Origin: Ectocarpus siliculosus
Taxonomy: Eukaryota > Sar > Phaeophyceae > Ectocarpales > Ectocarpaceae
Reading direction: 5' to 3'
Length of the DNA: 25,783 nt
Assembly: GCA_000310025.1 (NCBI GenBank)
Contig: FN648619.1
Span: 714,236-740,018 of the forward strand
Made by a program: the position numbers and the translations under genes. The notes beneath the pieces are model-generated. The model saw only the letters and a program-made list of their open reading frames with translations, was not told the origin of the DNA and did no database searches. Position 1 is the stretch's first letter; each line of letters opens with the position of its first letter. Of the stretch, positions 5,790-25,783 are shown piece after piece.

Positions 5790-6561
5790 AGAAGTGGGAC
5801 CCTACTCCCGAAATACAACCGACAGGTATGTGCGTCCCACCATGTCGCTGACGTCTGCTGCTGCAGCTCCTGTTGCCGTTGCTGCTGCTATGGCTGTGGT
5901 GTTCTCACATGCACAGATGGACGAACGCGGTGTCGTGTGGGTCGGAGGCCAGGGCCTAGTCCTGTCGAGCAACAACATGGTCACATACACGGCCACGGCC
6001 AAGTCCGTTGTTGTGTCAGCTGATAAGAATCATGCACATATGTAATTATTGATGTGCATGTATTTTATCAGCTGACACAACAACGGAGTCGGCCATGTAG
6101 TCTATGTGATCTTGTTATTGCCCGAAAGGACTGAGCCTTGAGTTCTAAGCCACCCCGCACCGCGTTGGTCCATCTGTGCATGTGAGAACACCAAATCCAC
6201 AGCAGCATCAGCATCAGCAGACCTCAACGACGTTGTCGTTGATGTTCGTCACGTAAGAGAACCCAAGATTAGTGTCTCGATGACGAAACGTCCAGCGCAC
6301 TTCTCAATAAAAATAGACAACCTCACGGGGCTAATTCCCGCCGGCCCAGCGAGCTACATGGATTACTCCAAAACGCAACCGACATGCGTCTCACCATGAG
6401 TAGACTCAAGAAAATTATGCGCATGTACCTTGTCGGCTGACGACACAACGACAGATCTGGCCGTGAATGCGATGGAGTGGTCGGAAACCACTGAGGCCTG
6501 ATCTCCGACCCACACGATGTTGTGCTCGTCCAGCTATTTATGTGTGTGAGAACACCAAACC

Positions 6562-10704: not shown

Positions 10705-11322
10705 CTAGCACAGTAAGCCAAAACCCGACAACCCATCGACCTCACTTCCCAGGAAAAATGGAAAGGAGCTGGACTCATTGCAATTTCGTTGAAATGGAAC
10801 CACTTTCTGTTTATGCCTCCTCCTTCTCTTTTTCTTCTTCCTCTTCTGCTGGATGGCATCGTAAAGCCCAGACTGCCGGTCGGAAAATTGTAGACACCCC
10901 TGATTCTGCCTTCTCGCACAGCATCCGCGAACTACCGCGTCCACCGACCACCGCCAATCTTGGGTCTTGGGTGTACGGTATTTCGCACCAACTGCATTGC
11001 TGCTTCTCCTGCTGCTGCCACTGCTTCTGCGGCTGTTCTGGGTGCTACTGCTGCTTGTTGTGACAGCCCTGCCGGGGGCGCGGTTGAGTCGCTCGAGCCA
11101 ACCTACAGAGTCCTGAAATAACGACGAAAAGGACAAAGAGCACCGACAATCACACCGGCTCACGGTGACGACCGTGGCAACGACAACAACAGTGGGGTGG
11201 TGGAGATGAACGGTGAGGAAGCGGTTGTGCGGTACTGTAGCACTGTTGGCACTACCGTACAACAGCAACAACAAAGAGCTACATGCATTCAGCAAAATGG
11301 GTTTGTCGCCAGGTCTAAGCAA
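10705..11322 (-). CDS. Open frame of 205 codons with a Ser/Arg-rich middle, doubtful
   Basis: Within the frame, a stretch after a good acceptor (TTATTTCAG near 11114) reads DSVGWLERLNRAPGRAVTTS, followed by a Ser/Arg run (RRSSGSSRRSS) and TPKTQDWRWSVDAV. A basic KKKKRRRRHK cluster occurs later. The Ser tract is encoded by AGC repeats and appears on the plus strand as a CTG-rich run at 10995-11060. Some of this may be a real exon of a Ser/Arg-rich protein, but the full frame includes sequence that looks intronic. No family recognised. Confidence 0.22.
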   Translation of the reverse strand: MLRPGDKPILLNACSSLLLLLYGSANSATVPHNRFLTVHLHHPTVVVVATVVTVSRCDCRCSLSFSSLFQDSVGWLERLNRAPGRAVTTSSSSTQNSRRSSGSSRRSSNAVGAKYRTPKTQDWRWSVDAVVRGCCARRQNQGCLQFSDRQSGLYDAIQQKRKKKKRRRRHKQKVVPFQRNCNESSSFPFFLGSEVDGLSGFGLLC

Positions 11323-11324
11323 TA

Positions 11325-11465
11325 GGGGGACCTGTTTAGTGCTGGTACTTGTCCAGAGGTTTCACCGGCACTAAACCGGGCACCCGGCACTATTGCGAAT
11401 GGTGCCAAAACGCCACTATTGAGGGCTGGCCAATCCCTCATTAGTGCTGGTCTGGCACTAATCAG
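11325..11465 (+). repeat. Left terminal arm with GGCACTA iterons
   Basis: Besides the terminal GTTTAGTGCTGGT, this arm contains ACCGGCACTAAACCGGGC, CCCGGCACTATTGCG, GCCACTATTGAGGGC and TTAGTGCTGGTCTGGCACTA. These are spaced by roughly 20-35 bases and occur in both orientations. Nothing in the arm is coding. Iterons like this usually bind the element's own DNA-binding protein. Confidence 0.7.
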
Positions 11466-11828
11466 ATTGTGTTCGACTCATATGGTGTAGCGCCCACGCT
11501 TGCAGGGTCGACAGAGTACGAAATGGATCGACACTACTGTTGAGTGAAGTTCCAGCGTCGGCGTGGGCAGACTTTCTTTCCTGCGACACGTTTGGTTCGA
11601 ACCTGTGGAGCCCACAACAGTTTGTTGTAAAATAAGATACAGTAGTTTCGGCCTACAGCCTAACCGGGACTAGTCGACGGCGAAAGAAAATACGTCATGT
11701 ACCCGAGTAAGCTGTGACGGCACAAACTGCTTGTAAAGCTCTCGTTCGTACAAAATATCACTGCTCGTTGCCTACTTCGATGTAGCTCCAAAAAAAGCGC
11801 ACCAAAGACAACAAAAAAACACAACTAC

Positions 11829-11900
11829 AGCTGTACCCCCGCCCTCACTACGTCGGGACAAATTCTCTCCTGTCTGCCTGGCGCATCCGCTTCGATGTTG
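11829..11900 (-). pseudogene. Duplicated 3' end of the zinc-finger/HTH gene
   Basis: This stretch repeats the last codons and stop region of the gene at 12000-12737. CAGCTGTACCCCC, CTCTC(C/A)TGTCTGCCTGGCGCA and CCGCTT occur in the same order here and at 11981-12053. Read on the minus strand it gives SKRMRQADRREFVPT and stop, against SAKRVRQADMREFVVVTE and stop in the intact copy. It is a tandem partial duplication about 150 bp downstream, probably non-functional. Confidence 0.65.
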
Positions 11901-11999
11901 CAAGAACAAGCGAAAAAAAAAATAAAAACAAGAAGCACGACAGGCAGCGCACCGCAACAAATCAAACAACCATCACTACCACAGCTGTACCCCCCGCGC

Positions 12000-12737
12000 T
12001 TACTCCGTAACAACAACAAACTCTCTCATGTCTGCCTGGCGCACCCGCTTAGCGGAATGCGCTGCAACCATCGCCATCTTCGCTTTTGCTAGGTAGAGCG
12101 CCGCGTCTTCGTTGCCACTCTCCTCTGCTGCCGCTTCCAGGATGCCGAAGTGAGACGACAGCTCACCATAAGCAGGTAGGGCACGGCGCGCGAGCCCCGT
12201 GTTCTCATCGCCACTGTCCTCCTCCTGTTCGTCCTCCTCCTCAGCAGTGTAGCGCACCTCCGGAAAGTCGCCTGTGCGTATGTTTTTCTGGCTTCCTCCG
12301 CCTCCTGCAGCAGCCTCGGTCTCGTACTTCTTTCGGTTTTTCTTCACATTCCGGACCAACCGTTCCGAGCACCCGGAGCGGCCCGCTATCTGCTCATGAG
12401 TCACCTTGTCATCCATCAGCTTCAGCATCTCAAGCTTGGCGCTGAAGTCCGGCCGCGCACGAGGCTCCCCACGAGGCTGAGACTTCTTACTCCCCCCATT
12501 CCTGGCCTTCGGGCGTTTAGATTGTGCCTTCCCAGCGCTGTCTGCTGCTGGCGCTTTGCGCTTGCCGGCCTCGGCGACGCACGCGCTGCAGATGCGGTGA
12601 TTTTCGTTGTCATCATCAAACATGCTGCCGCAAATGCCGTGCAGCCGCCCGCCACATCCTCCCTGGCAGCCGTGGCCATGAAGGTCTTGCGGCGTTGAGT
12701 CTGGTTGAGCGCAAAGTTCACCTTCCGCACATGGCAT
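12000..12737 (-). CDS. Zinc-binding plus CENP-B/pogo-type HTH protein of a mobile element
   Basis: A complete 245-codon frame. Residues 3-53 have a Cys/His array: C3-x5-C9, C24-x3-C28-x4-H33-x2-C36, then C50-x2-C53, similar in spacing to PHD/RING-like zinc modules. Residues 70-90 are basic (SKRPKARNGGSKK), a likely nuclear localisation signal. Residues 98-140 (FSAKLEMLKLMDDKVTHEQI, then AGRSGCSERLVRNVKKNRKK) fit the N-terminal helix-turn-helix of CENP-B and pogo/Tigger transposases: a KLE.LKL.D start, IA..SG.SE..VR, and KN..K. A Gly linker and an acidic EEEDEQEEDSGDEN patch follow, then a helical end. There is no DDE catalytic region; full transposases are usually much longer. A promoter-like CCAAT/TATA module lies about 90 bp upstream. 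It sits inside the TIR element at 11325-13605, whose iterons are its likely target. It could be a truncated transposase or an accessory or domesticated binding factor. Confidence 0.7.
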   Translation of the reverse strand: MPCAEGELCAQPDSTPQDLHGHGCQGGCGGRLHGICGSMFDDDNENHRICSACVAEAGKRKAPAADSAGKAQSKRPKARNGGSKKSQPRGEPRARPDFSAKLEMLKLMDDKVTHEQIAGRSGCSERLVRNVKKNRKKYETEAAAGGGGSQKNIRTGDFPEVRYTAEEEDEQEEDSGDENTGLARRALPAYGELSSHFGILEAAAEESGNEDAALYLAKAKMAMVAAHSAKRVRQADMREFVVVTE

Positions 12738-12828
12738 GGTACGCCCCTGCGTAGTGCTGTTCGGGTCTGCAGCAGCACGTGTACCCTATTTTTCTGTGTG
12801 GACTCTGTTTTCTCTGCCTGGTGTGTGT

Positions 12829-12912
12829 CTTTATATAATTAGCATCGGCCGCGCTAACCGGCTGACCAATGAAAAGGTGTCAGTCTTAGTGCGTTTGAAA
12901 ACACAAAACACT
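12829..12912 (-). promoter_or_regulatory. CCAAT/TATA promoter of the zinc-finger/HTH gene
   Basis: On the minus strand the order is CATTGGTCAGCCGGTTAGCG, then GATGCTAATTATATAAAGAC. That is an inverted CCAAT box followed about 30 bp later by a TATATAAAG box, which lies about 90 bp before the ATG at 12737. Spacing and order fit a polymerase II core promoter. Closely similar sequence occurs at 24086-24165 and, more diverged, at 7088-7175. Confidence 0.6.
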
Positions 12913-13037
12913 TCTATCTGCCATGAACTGGGACCCCGTGAGGGAACAGCATAGGGGAGGCTAAACTATCGTTCGGATCAAAGACAGAAACAGCAGCAAC
13001 AGAAGAAAACTGGGCGCGTCTACCAAGGCTATTACCT

Positions 13038-13355
13038 TGTACTCCAGTTCGTTTAGGAGTACTTTCACCATTATCCTCCTTGTTTTCGCTGCCATCATGC
13101 TGATCCTCATTTTGACAAGAATCTCTGGGCAGTTCTTCCCTAGCCCTACGTTTCTTGTTTTGGGGAAGGTCATCTGGCTCAAACCCTTTGCTCTCTTCCA
13201 CTCCTCCATGTTTTCCTCCTCCATCGTCGTCTTCGTCCTCCTTTCTTCCCTTTCCCTTTCCTTCGTCTCCGTCACTCCTAAAAGAACTACCCTCATTACT
13301 ATCATTGTCGCAGAGATCCCAACCGGTTGGCCCTTGGAAGTTGGTCGATCAGTAG
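13038..13355 (-). CDS. Acidic, Lys-rich candidate exon inside the TIR element
   Basis: An open minus-strand stretch reads TNFQGPTGWDLCDNDSNEGS, then a Gly/Lys/Asp/Glu-rich run, VEESKGFEPDDLPQNKKRRA and STPKRTGVQ before a donor-like CAAG/GTAATA. KNKKRR-type residues could act as a nuclear signal. The same DNA on the plus strand gives a hydrophobic 110-codon frame (13037-13369), the expected shadow of charged codons. Which strand, if either, is used is not certain. No transposase catalytic motif is visible. Confidence 0.3.
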
Positions 13356-13406
13356 CCCATGACGTTTGAACACATCGCGAGTTCGCATCGACAGAAAACG
13401 AGCTAG

Positions 13407-13436
13407 CTCGTGTGTGTGTGTGTGTTCGCGCGCGCG
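13407..13436. repeat. (GT)n microsatellite
   Basis: A run of GT units followed by alternating CG, next to the inner edge of the right arm of the TIR element. Confidence 0.85.
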
Positions 13437-13605
13437 GGGTAACCAGCACTATTGGGGGTGACAGCGGCGCCGAACCGGCACTATACCGGGCAAGCTCTCA
13501 AAAGTGCCGGTCTGGCACTATTGAGAGCACCGCCTGTGTCCAGAGATTTTACCGGCGCTATATCGGGCAGCTGGCACTAATCAACCGGCACTAAATAGGT
13601 CCCCC
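13437..13605 (-). repeat. Right terminal arm with GGCACTA iterons
   Basis: The arm holds AACCAGCACTATTGGGGG, AACCGGCACTATACCGGGC, AGTGCCGGTCTGGCACTATT, ACCGGCGCTATATCGGGC and CTGGCACTAATCAACCGG before the terminal CACTAAATAGGTCCCCC. The CCAGAGATTTTACCGG block is shared with the left arm (CCAGAGGTTTCACCGG) and with the short element at 1412-1561, confirming one family. Confidence 0.7.
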
Positions 13606-13607
13606 TA

Positions 13608-15193
13608 CTGTAGTCTACTTCCAGAACCGGCGGTGTTTGTGCTATTCCGCGCAAGACAGCGAAGCTACTCCAGCTGTGTGCACAACAAGCGTGGGGAATA
13701 GGCAACATAGAGCGCTAAACAAGCAGCCCTCCGTGACAAAAGGGAACGACAGAATCAGCAACACAAGTATTCCAGGTCATATTCAACAACAAAACCCAAA
13801 CCAATCCCACCTACCGTATGTACGGAATTCCCATTCTCATCATATGGCAAAGGGGACACGGGGGCAACATCCGGCCGAAATCCCATGCTGGAGATTGAAC
13901 GTTTGTTCCCCCCACGTTTGTCGGTTTTGGAAATTCTGAAAAGACACCGAGACAAGGGCTCACCGCCGAGAAGCGAACAGACACCGGCGGCCGCCTTCCT
14001 GCCTGAAGGGAGGGTTCGGCGTGTACCCGCATGGACTTCCACATCAACTTCGCGGGGCCGGAGTCCGAGGCGTGGCAGTGGTTGGTTCACTCCAGGTACT
14101 CGCCCGCCGGTCTGTTGTCGTGGTGGCTGTGACAGACAGACGCAACGGACCAATCGAGAACTAAAGGGTCGGAAATAGCATCTCCTGCCTCAATTGGACC
14201 CCCACTGTCTACAGTCGAAGCTTCTTTCATAGCCTACCAACTCATGGCAGGCGATGTTCGTCTCAAAGGCTTCGTCCTACGAGTGCTAACGAGAAACTTG
14301 GGGACTTCCAGGGGAAATAACTGGTGGATGTGCCGCCAGACACAACGCACCGGTCACAGACGTAGCAGTAGCACAGGGAACACTTCTCCTTGTGGCTGCG
14401 GCTCCATTCCGGACCCTCGAACTGATGCTGCAGAAAAGTGTGGATCCGGGGAGGGCGGGGGGCTTTTCAGTGGCGGAAAAAGTGAGGGCGCCGGGCTGCC
14501 GTGTGTGAGGGTGGCTATATTGCCAATCTCGCTGGGCTTGTTCGCGCCCGGCCAATGGATATCACTCCCAAGCGTGCACGCCATTGTCAAGATCCTTCAC
14601 GTTGACTTCTGTTCAATCCGTCATTGGGTGTCTTCCCTCTTGACCCTACCAAGAATAAAAAATCATATCCATGGTACATGATCATCACGCGGTTTTTCCG
14701 AGTATACTACCGATCGTCCGAAGTGTGTACCCTTTTTTGGTTAGTTGATCTGCGACTACCGAAGACATTCGCGTCTGTTGGACTGGTACTTATTCTGAGC
14801 ATAGGTCGGAATGGCGCTTCATGTGAAGACTGCAACGACAGCCCAAACCACGCGTGGAATGCGGGGCTTGTTCGTGTGTGTTCATGTGCAGGAAGGATCT
14901 GAGGACGGTTCTGTGTTCCGTAGATGAAGGGACCTACTGTTTGTACCTGTTGTGGTAGACTTGGATGACTCTGCGGTGCCCCCATGCTGCGTCAGCCTGT
15001 GGAGGCACTCTCTTTCTTCTCTGTCTGTCGTGCGTGTGTCCTGCTGATCTTTTAAAGCCATCAGCGAGACTTACTCGTCACTGGACACAAATACGGGCAT
15101 ACCCAGCACACACTCCGGCTCTAGGAGTGATCAACAGGACTCATTTCCGGGGGGGATGGGGGGTCAGCTGCTGAACGACGTGCACCACCTCAC
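13608..15193. other. No confident gene; weak exon candidate on plus strand
   Basis: Near 14031-14095 a plus-strand reading gives MDFHINFAGPESEAWQWLVH before a donor-like TCCAG/GTACTC, which looks protein-like but stands alone. A 145-codon plus frame at 14244-14681 lacks motifs. A diverged copy of the 64-bp repeat from 173-296 lies near 14724. The rest shows nothing supportable. Confidence 0.35.
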
Positions 15194-15491
15194 CTCCGTG
15201 CAAGCGAAGCGGATATGCCGCAAATTGAGTGTTCCGGTTATGCCTACCAACTTCCCCAAATGCGAAGCGCTTGTGCGGCAGCCTGGGTATGCCGGTCGTG
15301 CCGGTCACCTTCAGGCCTTTGTCTGCCTCCCCGTGTTGAGACGACGACGGCCCCTTCCTGCGCTTGGCCGGGCGGCTGGGGATTCGCTCTTCCATGGACG
15401 GCTGGGCCGTGGAGATAACCTCGCCGCTTTGCTGGGCCGTCGCGGAGGCGTCGGCAGCCCACCTCACACCCTTGCTATTCTTCTTCTTCTT
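15194..15491 (-). CDS. Second recognisable exon of SIM/NLS nuclear protein, copy 2
   Basis: This is the paralogue of the exon at 469-693. Shared blocks in order are KKNSKGVRWAADASATAQQS with GEV, the nuclear-localisation-like RPAKRRKG, a GTTGIPRLPHKRFA tail and the ACGGAG/GTGAGG donor. After RFAFGE this copy carries an extra ~55 bp, a tandem duplicate of the GTTG-to-RFACTE segment. It restores the conserved donor but shifts the frame within the tail. The acceptor here is a weaker TCGAAG where copy 1 has TTCGCAG. These changes make copy 2 the more likely degenerating or alternatively spliced member. Function unknown. Confidence 0.5.
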
Positions 15492-20639: not shown

Positions 20640-21630
20640 CTGAAGTTGAGCCGTAAAAAAACGAAAAAGAAAAAACAGAACATGACAAGAGGCGTTTTTC
20701 TTCCGAGTCGGTCCGTTCTAGACAAAATAGGCCCTGCTCGCTCACGTGTGTGACACGAATGAGCTTGGCAGTCAGGACAGGTATATCGAGGCGGGAACGT
20801 GCCGCATGAGGTCACGTCAACTCGAGACGCCGATTCCATTCCAGGTTATCAAATCAGGCGTAGAAACGAGCAAAACGTGAGTATGGAGGGTGTCTATTCT
20901 ATTTCATTCTATATACTTGAATTTTTCGATTTAACTATGCCTTCATCCTCAAGTTCTTGGTGGCGGGGAAGGGAATGTGAGGGCGCAAACAGATCAAAAT
21001 CCGCCATTTCAGCTCACGGGCAAGCGCGACACAGCCTGGGGCTCGGAGCCATCCGCACATGTGGTTGTCATATCGCACCATCTCGAGAGGGTATTTTGGC
21101 GGAACAACCATCAGCTATGCAAACTGTTTCCTCTCGCCAGGGAAGCAGCCGCCACATCCATGGTCCAAACATTTGCCTCTCGACAGAATACACGAGACAG
21201 CGGAAACGCACTCACGGACGGTAGGCTGTGACAAGAGATGACAAGGGATACTCCGCGAGAATAACAAAAGGTGCGCGGAAACGACCATTATCATTATCAG
21301 CCACGTCCAAAAGGTAGAGGGATAACGTCCCTGAAAGAGCGCATGTCTTTCGAGAGCCCGGAAACGATCAGCAGCAGCAGCAGCCACATCCGAATGGGAA
21401 AGCAAAAGCCCTCCTGCAAGAAGGAAAACCCGGAGAAGTAGCTGCGGACTGCCATGGAAGACTAACATCCGGAGGCGAGATGGCTCCTCCTCCCTACTCG
21501 TGCTTCCAGCCTTTTGGACGTGGCTGATAATGATGATGGTCGTTTCGGCGCTGTCTACGAAGACGCGCGCGGCGCTACTGGCCCGGACAAACAACCCATG
21601 CCTCTCTGCAGAGGCAGGCGTAGCGCTCAC

Positions 21631-23166: not shown

Positions 23167-23407
23167 ATCGCCGACCCTGCTGTCACTACGCTTCAACTGA
23201 TACATCGTCTGCCACCCAAGATAAGTTTATGGCTTAATGTCTGTTCGCTTTCACAAAGACAAGTTCTGCATGCCACTACTCCCGCTTCTGCTGGTGCCTG
23301 CTCCTCCTCTGCTGGTGCACGCGCAACCGCTGCCACAACCTCTCGACGCTACCACCCATCACCGCAAAACCTCTACAACACCACTCGACGTATTCTGCGG
23401 AACGTAC

Positions 23408-23548
23408 CGTGAGCGCCGCGGTCCTCTGCGTCCGGGACATGTTTCCCGTGAGCGTGCGGAACTGGAAGCCCCTCTTGGGCAGGGTGCGCTTGAGCCACTC
23501 CAGGGAAGAGTTGAACTGTGAAAAGACCAGGCTCTTTGATGTGGGGTC
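23408..23548 (-). CDS. RING/SNF2 ATPase, first exon of helicase C lobe
   Basis: A 47-codon exon runs between acceptor GATTGGCAG and donor ACG/GTACGT, phase 0 at both ends. It reads DPTSKSLVFSQFNSSLEWLK, then RTLPKRGFQFRTLTGNMSRT and QRTAALT. KSLVFSQF..SL..L...L...GF.F..L.G.MS...R..A is the hallmark start of the SNF2 Helicase_C domain (motif IV region), and KSLVFSQF is typical of RAD16/RAD5/HLTF proteins. With the upstream exon the junction becomes LVEMLAGIHAK/DPTSKSLVF, just as in relatives, where a helix leads into this strand. Confidence 0.9.
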
Positions 23549-23567
23549 CTGCCAATCGGATGAAGGG

Positions 23568-23735
23568 GGGGGGTGGGGGTACGCAAGTGCTGCATTACTT
23601 AGCTCTAAAACCATTGACCGCGCGTCCTCTCGACGAGGGGGGGGGTGTACTCACGAAAACACATGCCGCGGCCGGTAGACCATTGACCTCGCATCACTAC
23701 AAGCCCAGATGAGCAATATGCCGGGTTTCCCTGGC
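23568..23735 (+). repeat. SINE-like repeat, one partial and one longer copy
   Basis: A partial unit (about 23568-23635) and a longer one (about 23636-23735) each begin with a G-run, GGTACgCA or GTGTACTCA, and include ACCATTGACC(G/T)CGC(G/A)TC. The same block occurs at 24640-24740. The series GGTAG/CGTTAG, then ATTGACCTCGCATC, and GGTT with a C-rich follow-up is tRNA-like (D-arm, anticodon-loop-like CTCGCAT), which suggests a tRNA-derived short interspersed element. The tRNA origin is inference. It sits in the intron between the RING exon and the helicase exon. Confidence 0.5.
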
Positions 23736-24085: not shown

Positions 24086-24165
24086 AGTGTTTTTGTGTTT
24101 TCAACCGCACTAAGACTGACCTCTTTTCATTGGTCAGCCGGTTAGCGCGGTCGATGCTAACAATA
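24086..24165 (+). promoter_or_regulatory. Relic of the HTH-element promoter inside RING/SNF2 intron
   Basis: GTGTTTTCAACCGCACTAAG, ACTGACCTCTTTTCATTGGT, CAGCCGGTTAGCGCGGTCGA match, in inverse orientation, the stretch upstream of the zinc-finger/HTH gene (12829-12912) with only a few differences. The TATA position here reads AACAATAAAAAAG, so the core promoter is weakened. It is antisense to the host gene and preceded by a (CA)n run at 24073-24087. Confidence 0.6.
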
Positions 24166-24236
24166 AAAAAGAAACACCCACACCTTTACATGAGCTAACG
24201 AACGCTCACGCCCTCGTCTCAACAGCCCTCCATTAC

Positions 24237-24584
24237 CTTGGCGTGGATGCCGGCAAGCATCTCCACCAGAGCTTTAAGCTTGGTCTCCATCACCACTCCG
24301 GTGCCCGGCGAAGCTGAAGAAGAAGACCCTCCAGAGCTACTCGACCCGCCGCCTCCTGCCGAACCACCGCCGCCTCCTTGTTCCTGGGGCTCGGGCTTGG
24401 TCGCCCCAGAACTAGACCCCGTTGGAGCCGCTGCTGCTGCTGCTGCTGCTGCGGCGGCGGCGGCGGCGGCGGCGGCGGCACCACCGCCGACGTGGGTAAG
24501 GTCGTCCAGCCGAACGGTCTTCTTGCACTTGGGGCAGGGGCCCTGGTCGTCCTCCTTCTTGGTCAACACCGACGAGATGCACGC
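24237..24584 (-). CDS. RING/SNF2 ATPase, exon with RING C-terminal half and polyalanine linker
   Basis: A 116-codon exon runs between acceptor GATGTCAG and donor AAG/GTAATG, phase 0. It begins ACISSVLTKKEDDQGPCPKC, the second half of a C3HC4 RING finger: C..CI...L, then CP.C, with the first four zinc ligands expected in the previous exon outside the window. After KKTVRLDDLTHVGG comes about 18 alanines, then Gly/Ser-rich sequence with PTGSSSGATKPEPQEQ, and finally ETKLKALVEMLAGIHAK, the helix leading into the helicase C lobe. A RING between the two helicase lobes defines the RAD5/RAD16/HLTF/SHPRH group of ubiquitin ligase-translocases used in DNA-damage tolerance and nucleotide excision repair. 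The low-complexity linker of ~80 residues between RING and C lobe is unusual. The N-terminal helicase lobe lies beyond the right end. Confidence 0.85.
24425..24482. repeat. Alanine-coding trinucleotide run
   Basis: On the plus strand, GCTGCTGCTGCTGCTGCTGCT is followed by GCGGCGGCGG units; on the coding minus strand these are GCA/GCC codons giving the polyalanine tract of the RING/SNF2 protein. Mixed codons suggest the tract is partly selected at protein level, but the two pure blocks could still change length. Confidence 0.9.
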
Positions 24585-24639
24585 CTGACATCACACACAA
24601 TTGTAGGAAGAAATTGCGGCGACGGGAGGGGGGAGGGGG

Positions 24640-24740: not shown

Positions 24741-25071
24741 CAGGCTCTCACATAACCAAGCGCGAAGCGCCGTGAGGTACTCGGCGAGTCGCATCTTGTG
24801 CTTACTTCCTTGCGTACGGATGACAGCTGCGTATGACTTAATTTATTTTCAGGTGCTTTCACTTGCAGAGACAGTTATAAGAACTGTGTAACTGCCTCGA
24901 TGGGTGCTTGATCATTTTAACACAACGTGGTACGATCATCCCCCTTGCACGGAGTGAGGGTTCTCGACCCCGCACAACATGATATACTCGACCACCATTA
25001 TGGTTACCGCAAAAAAAAACAGAGGTAAAAAAAAGAAACGGTAACCTGGTTGCCGAGTTCACGAAGTGAAT

Positions 25072-25204
25072 TGGCTTGTTTTACAACGTCGTTGCCAAGC
25101 GACGAAAACCCAATCCCGATGGCAAACACCGAGGGGGGGGCTTGTTTTACAACGTCGTTGCCAAGCGACGAAAACCTAACCCCGATGACAAACACCGGGG
25201 GGGG
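25072..25204. repeat. Two-copy direct repeat, 66-67 bp
   Basis: GCTTGTTTTACAACGTCGTT, GCCAAGCGACGAAAACC, then CCGATG(G/A)CAAACACCG and a G-run occur twice with four or five differences. Non-coding. The G-run ends may have favoured mis-assembly next to it. Confidence 0.85.
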
Positions 25205-25205
25205 C

Positions 25206-25783
25206 GCTGGGGGGGGGGGGGGGGGGTAACCCAAAGGGGTCATTCCCTAATCCTTTTAACCTTTACCCCCCATCCCCACAAAACCCGGAACGAACACCCC
25301 CGGGTTTCCCCCGAACCGGGTCTCCCATCACCAAACCCCAAACCCCCTGGAGTATTTTGGCAATCCCCAAAAAGGGGAACCGCCTCCCTCTTAAGGGGTT
25401 CCGCATCTTTTGCTTTATTTCTTTCCTACCGGGTAAAACTACCTATTAATTAATTTTTTTTTTGGGGCTTTTCCTTCCCAAAAAAATTTTAAACACTTTT
25501 TAAATTCCCCCAAGAAACTTTACCCTTTTTAAACAAACTGGGGCCAACATCCCCCCTTTCCCCGAATGAAGGTTTTCCACCCCCCCCAAAATTATCTACT
25601 CCAACCCCCTTTTTGTTTCCCCCCAAAAAAAAAACCAAGTAAAAAAAAAAAACCCGGAACCCTGTTTTCCAATTTCCCAAATGAAATTGGTTTTTTTAAA
25701 AACTCCTTTCCCAACCAACAAAACCCCATCCCCAAGGGAAAAACCCAGGGGGGGGGCCCTTGGGGGGGGGGGAAAAAAAAAAA
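25206..25783. other. Degraded duplicate of the preceding ~575 bp; probable sequencing or assembly artefact
   Basis: From the G-run near 25208 to the window end, the sequence follows 24630-25208 in order, with single bases replaced by their neighbours and homopolymers lengthened. GGGTTCTCGACCCCGCACAA at 24959 becomes AGGTTTTCCACCCCCCCCAA near 25570, and GCGACGAAAACCCAATCCCG becomes ACCAACAAAACCCCATCCCC near 25714. Substitution toward the adjacent base is typical of failing base calls at a read end, not of evolution. Frames here are meaningless. Confidence 0.8.

Follow-up and report, generated by a model that had tools for sequence, protein, structure and literature searches.

The locus raises the question of what kind of mobile element keeps an intact gene for a putative DNA-binding protein between terminal inverted repeats (TIRs) and arrays of a short motif, and carries no recognised transposase. 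Within the window, by which we mean the whole analysed stretch of 25.8 kb, a sequence-only reading had placed this element at 11325-13605. The near-matching ends GGGGGACCT(G/A)TTTAGTGC that it had named are both exact; GGGGGACCTGTTTAGTGC at 11325-11342 (plus strand) and GGGGGACCTATTTAGTGC at 13588-13605 (minus strand) are the sole matches without mismatch in the window. With up to three mismatches, the end sequence has three matches in the window compared to 0.09 expected from shuffles. The boundaries 11325 and 13605, however, did not hold, since the conserved end homology runs further out, as seen from a 157-bp relative at 1408-1564. When the four ends of both elements are anchored on CCT(G/A)TTTAGTG, C at position -11, A at -10, A at -7, G at -6 and G at -4 are invariant, and the homology extends outwards past GGGGG as CA(A/G)(T/C)AG in all four ends. 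Judged from this alignment, the conserved end reaches at least 5 bp beyond GGGGG. In the leading model, which is based on the four-end alignment of the two elements, the large element would therefore extend over 2297 bp from 11316 to 13612, with the ends TAAGCAATAG (on the TAAG-CAATAG side) and TACAGTAG, which lie 9 and 7 bp outside those given before. The left TIR (TAAGCAATAGGGGGACCTGTTTAGTGCTGGT, 11316-11346, plus strand, end profile score 34.4) and the right TIR (TACAGTAGGGGGACCTATTTAGTGCCGGT as read on the minus strand, 13584-13612) pair as inverted arms of 27 nt with 89% identity. The correction is of practical importance, as searches with the previous ends would target the wrong empty site.

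The 157-bp miniature element is flanked by ACA at 1405-1407 and 1565-1567. Its own ends CAGCAGAG and CCCTGTTTAGTG pair as an inverted repeat, and under the leading model they read TAG-CAGCAG and TACAGCAG. The reverse complement of the miniature aligns locally with the left end of the large element with a score of 62, which none of 500 shuffles reaches (maximum 39); the other three end-to-relative alignments are weak, their scores being reached by 5, 14, and 12 of 500 shuffles, respectively. Two copies of the ends are available, both inside this window. A miniature element related to the large one is what can be expected if the family is mobilised in trans.

Under the leading-model ends both elements start and finish with TA, and both are flanked by 3-bp direct repeats, GTC/GTC at 11313-11315 and 13613-13615 in the large element and ACA/ACA in the miniature. 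We give slightly better than even chances to a target-site duplication of 3 bp, which is taken as the leading model and not as proof. A shared terminal dinucleotide within 2-4 bases of the four ends, combined with a 3-bp repeat in both elements, arose in a fraction of 5e-6 to 3.5e-5 of 200,000 random-flank trials, under a rule that was framed post hoc, after the data had been seen, and for two copies only. For a single element, 48% of random flanks contain a 3-bp match anywhere within 0-6 bases. Against the 3-bp model stands the unequal spacing at the left ends, with four versus three bases before CA. Next comes a Tc1/mariner-like reading, which we regard as unlikely, in which the ends start with CAG, lie beyond those of the sequence-only reading and are directly enclosed by a TA duplication. 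TA stands immediately outside CAG at both right ends, which is compatible with a TA duplication as well, and one or two bases outside CA at both left ends. However, in neither element is the left TA directly adjacent to the TIR, and GTC/GTC and ACA/ACA outside of TA would have to be coincidence. Still less probable is a duplication of 5 bp (GTCTA at 11313-11317, with the same five bases in the right flank), which was initially preferred; it suits the large element, but not the 157-bp element, and 3.8% of random flanks contain a match of 5 bp at some point within 0-6 bases. The pogo/Tigger-like reading with a TA duplication directly outside GGGGG and ends at 11325 and 13605 is very improbable: TA is indeed present on both sides of the GGGGG pair, which is among the two listed TA-bounded 14-nt inverted repeats of the whole window (up to two mismatches, less than 6 kb apart), but the homology runs outwards past it in all four ends, the corresponding positions (-8 and -7) read CA in both ends of the 157-bp element, and the CENP-B_N match described below stays under its cut-off. 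What probability remains for the target duplication goes, in our judgement, to something else. As a dinucleotide, the TA outside of both GGGGG ends is real, whereas as a target duplication it is unsupported. It is probably internal to the element, which speaks against Tc1/mariner or pogo. The expected pre-insertion site would be AGGTCTACTT under the 3-bp and the 5-bp model alike, and AGGTCTAGTCTACTT under the outer-TA model.

The dense iterons that had been described for both arms of the element are real. The 9-bp motif TAGTGC(C/T)(A/G)G (TAGTGCYRG) has 11 exact matches in the window compared to 0.5 expected, ten of which fall into the two arms, five in each, and none between them; the eleventh is in the 157-bp element, at 1537. 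The left subterminal array (11316-11466) contains its five exact motifs in both orientations, and the right one (13437-13612) has two further motifs with one mismatch besides its five exact ones. With one mismatch allowed, the motif has 32 matches in the window, 16 inside 11300-13630 and 16 outside, compared to a mean of 15.75 in 20 shuffles of the whole window. Furthermore, the arms share direct repeats in the same orientation, of 43 nt (84%) and 39 nt (79%), and are therefore mosaics and not a simple mirror of each other.

Between the arrays lies the gene, at 12000-12737 on the minus strand, and its open reading frame of 245 codons is intact, as had been stated before. The element's longest open frame runs to 261 codons, above the 95% point of 206 but below the maximum of 287 in 300 single-base shuffles, whose median was 130. 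The 245-aa protein consists of an N-terminal Cys/His module (residues 3-53), a basic linker, a helix-turn-helix (HTH, residues 99-134, encoded at 12336-12443 on the minus strand), an acidic stretch (residues 166-178) and C-terminal helices, predicted at residues 180-206 and 210-228 by a low-confidence model. The AlphaFold model of the whole protein has a mean pLDDT of 52 and served for helix hints only. An HTH had already been seen in the letters and is confirmed by HTH_23 (PF13384), which matches a 57-aa fragment alone with E 1.8e-5 and 24.8 bits at a cut-off of 24.6, and the whole protein under the cut-off with E 2.8e-4 and 21.1 bits. Its assignment to the CENP-B/psq type was not confirmed, since CENP-B_N (PF04218) reaches 13.5 bits compared to a cut-off of 21.2 (E 0.058), so that the HTH can be called generic but not demonstrably of CENP-B or psq type. 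HTH_23 and CENP-B_N are both transposase-type HTH models. The AF2 model of the HTH fragment shows four short helices with a mean pLDDT of 78. Foldseek returned 681 matches for this fragment at E ≤ 10 and none at E ≤ 0.001; among the best 50 of the 681, a signal-recognition-particle chain comes first, and the others are mostly HTH regulators, mainly bacterial. The Cys/His module (C3-C9-C24-C28-H33-C36-C50-C53, encoded at 12579-12731 on the minus strand) has a PHD-like spacing. A loosened PHD-like pattern, picked post hoc, was fitted by none of the 20,000 sequences made by shuffling residues 1-60. The zinc module proposed before has no family match above cut-off (best zf-RING-like, E 0.92), and the EsV-1-7 spacing was not found in it.

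The 3' end of the gene is present as an old tandem duplication at 11820-12050 (11820-11892 and 11974-12050, 80%). Upstream of the gene, a block at 12819-12912 (minus strand) contains motifs spotted by eye, ATTGG and TATATAAA, which are CCAAT-like and TATA-like, respectively. This block matches 24086-24180 over 96 columns with 88.5% identity, where no copy of the element ends was recognised. The copy adjoins a minus-strand open frame at 24219-24590, which was read from the letters as a helicase RING exon. Together with 23276-23614, this frame constitutes pieces of a probable SNF2-type helicase gene on the minus strand, with Helicase_C under the cut-off (E 0.0012) and a RING-like CxxC exon seen by eye. 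The window contains other repeats as well. An inverted repeat of 42 nt (95%) at 21273-21314 and 21510-21551 surrounds a short stretch and is probably another miniature TIR element, a near-palindrome of about 330 bp (80%) at 5883-6210 with related pieces up to about 6744 is a possible foldback element, and diverged dispersed direct repeats of 73-75% are found at 24915-25140 and 25527-25755 and at 547-682 and 15351-15483. On the minus strand of the large element itself, there is an open frame of 144 codons at 12914-13348, whose sole Met, as judged by eye, is near its end. Its GC3 is 0.40 compared to 0.64 in the gene for the 245-aa protein. Neither this frame nor an overlapping ATG frame of 114 aa at 12961-13305 has a family match above cut-off, and neither was counted as a gene.

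The absence of a DDE nuclease, which had been claimed from the letters, agrees with the Pfam scan: among the 27 open frames with ≥50 codons in 11325-13606, none matched a transposase at E ≤ 0.1, in a scan of single open frames that would miss a transposase split into many short exons. Besides the HTH models, Pfam gave just two matches, Trypan_PARP at E 0.019 and Mhr1 at E 0.056; these are under the cut-off, and neither is a transposase. For the 245-aa protein, NCBIfam gave nothing, and two PHROGs families, an HNH endonuclease family (E 0.053, residues 43-131) and one of unknown function (E 0.075), were taken as chance. Among PDB sequences the best E-values were 0.29 for the whole protein and 0.28 for the HTH, and the zinc part had no match at E ≤ 10. 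Relatives of the protein were searched for in viral contigs (28 pattern matches, none confirmed by tblastn), in genome contigs (169 pattern matches, none confirmed) and in phages (no match), by single-protein scans that reach close relatives only and in sets to which eukaryote genomes do not belong. The pattern of the zinc module occurs at 30 viral loci; these were judged by tblastn together with others, 39 loci in total, to be chance, the best E-value of the 245-aa protein being 0.044 and two 18-residue matches there crossing a stop codon. Viral contigs contain no match to the element ends and none to a 27-mer of the upstream block. A shorter end core gave three loci with one, one, and two exact motifs, and a two-part end pattern gave no match in viral contigs and six unrelated bacterial loci with one or two motifs each, all of which were considered chance. 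At gathering thresholds, Rfam had no match.

The observations thus comprise ends, arrays, an intact gene, an HTH, one miniature relative and no transposase match. Given its TIRs, the presence of its ends in two copies, both in this window, and the lack of a transposase match, the element can only be filed as a non-autonomous TIR transposon. From the composition and gene style of the window its host is taken to be a eukaryote, and a brown alga like Ectocarpus is suspected. For its biology we consider it about an even chance that it is a class II transposon of this kind whose subterminal arrays are served by its own accessory or regulatory protein, which would bind the iterons, with the transposase acting in trans. 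Precedents exist for such a division. In En/Spm, TNPA binds the subterminal repeats and regulates the element, TNPD is the putative transposase, and both proteins are required and are able to act in trans (PMC2613891). Ping/Harbinger requires ORF1 plus the TPase (PMC9921582). As En/Spm is built in the same way, with the gene of a binding protein between short-motif arrays, and as Ping/Harbinger also relies on two proteins, we infer that the 245-aa protein recognises the motifs of the arms and that the transposase is supplied by a relative. Accordingly worded as a model, the protein would be expressed from its own upstream block, would bind the arrayed motifs via the HTH, would pair or mark the element ends and would possibly throttle its own promoter. 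The predicted C-terminal helices, taken from a low-confidence model, may mediate dimerisation, and the cut-and-paste step would be carried out by a DDE transposase that an autonomous relative encodes elsewhere. The protein may help or repress transposition. Against this explanation it has to be considered that the 3' end of the gene carries the old 80% tandem duplication. Moreover, the sets searched contained no relative of the protein that could attest to selection on the gene or to a link between gene and ends across the family. The element is real and coherent, and the proposed mechanism is plausible. The earlier suggestion, in which the element is mobilised in trans, carries the gene of a binding protein and lacks a nuclease, is in keeping with these observations; its pogo/Tigger placement is not.

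Among the alternatives for the gene, a Pack-type element, in which a captured host gene or the gene of another transposon is passive cargo without a role in transposition, has a real but clearly smaller chance. The copy of the upstream block elsewhere in the window, without recognised element ends, is in line with it, and the PHD-like spacing would fit a chromatin protein. Gene cargo has also been reported in Ectocarpus giant transposons (PMC12477816). However, dense short-motif repeats on both sides of the gene for an HTH protein are what can be expected of an element-specific binding protein. Doubtful is the view that the gene is a truncated or internally deleted transposase, namely the N-terminal DNA-binding part of a Tc1/mariner, pogo or other enzyme that has lost its DDE domain, to which the matches to the transposase-type models HTH_23 and CENP-B_N would correspond. 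The open reading frame finishes in an acidic, helical C-terminal part of its own, neither this frame nor the others scanned have a DDE match, a TA duplication is unsupported, and the EsV-1-7 spacing is absent. The latter bears on TcMar-2_Ec32 of Ectocarpus, which according to PMC12477816 joins an extra N-terminal EsV-1-7 domain to a transposase and which otherwise speaks for this view. It is similarly unlikely that the element represents an undescribed group of two-component transposons, in which a PHD-like zinc module plus an HTH reading TAGTGCYRG arrays would travel without a transposase; the zinc module of such an end-recognition protein could read chromatin.

Returning to the preferred reading of a non-autonomous transposon with its own iteron-binding protein, none of the known systems fits in all parts. 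Like En/Spm (CACTA), the element combines a gene for a putative DNA-binding protein with short-repeat arrays in both orientations inside both ends, and it shares the 3-bp target duplication, though in the leading model only, which is derived from two elements and a post hoc rule. EnSpm/CACTA ends begin with CAC(T/A), whereas the leading-model ends lack a CAC start. Unlike En/Spm, the element has no tnp2/DDE match in its 27 open frames (Pfam), the 245-aa protein has no Pfam match beyond the generic HTH, and the element is far smaller. Judged by these comparisons, CACTA does not fit in its ends and its transposase. With PIF/Harbinger the element shares the two-protein logic with a separate DNA-binding protein, which there is a Myb/SANT-like ORF1 beside the TPase, but here a TPase match is absent and HTH_23 takes the place of Myb/SANT. 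Harbinger is diverse in Ectocarpus, and TNA or ANT duplications are reported there (PMC12477816), neither of which is fitted by GTC and ACA if the 3-bp model is right. Harbinger therefore does not match in its set of proteins, nor probably in its duplication.

The Tc1/mariner pogo/Tigger group has in common with the element a homeodomain-like HTH, TA at the ends and a CAG-like start, which is typical of this group and found here at the right ends. The membership claimed for the element is not borne out: its TA is probably internal and unsupported as a duplication, 3-bp repeats flank both elements, CENP-B_N is under the cut-off, and there is no DDE match, an absence that is compatible with non-autonomous members of Tc1/mariner, which would lack the transposase too. 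Tc1/mariner thus fits neither in its transposase nor, probably, in its duplication. If the 245-aa protein binds the motifs, the element would be a very small natural transposon that keeps the gene for end recognition and borrows the cutter, in the division of labour known for TnpA and ORF1. In the Ectocarpus survey, 51 DNA families are unclassified, and among the giant DNA transposons there are several families whose genes all lack homology to transposases (PMC12477816). The element resembles these gene-carrying non-autonomous transposons in having a gene without transposase homology, but differs from them in size, as they are giant, generally >10 kb, whereas it has 2.3 kb, and, provided that the host is the suspected brown alga, it could help to assign one of the 51 unclassified families (PMC12477816).
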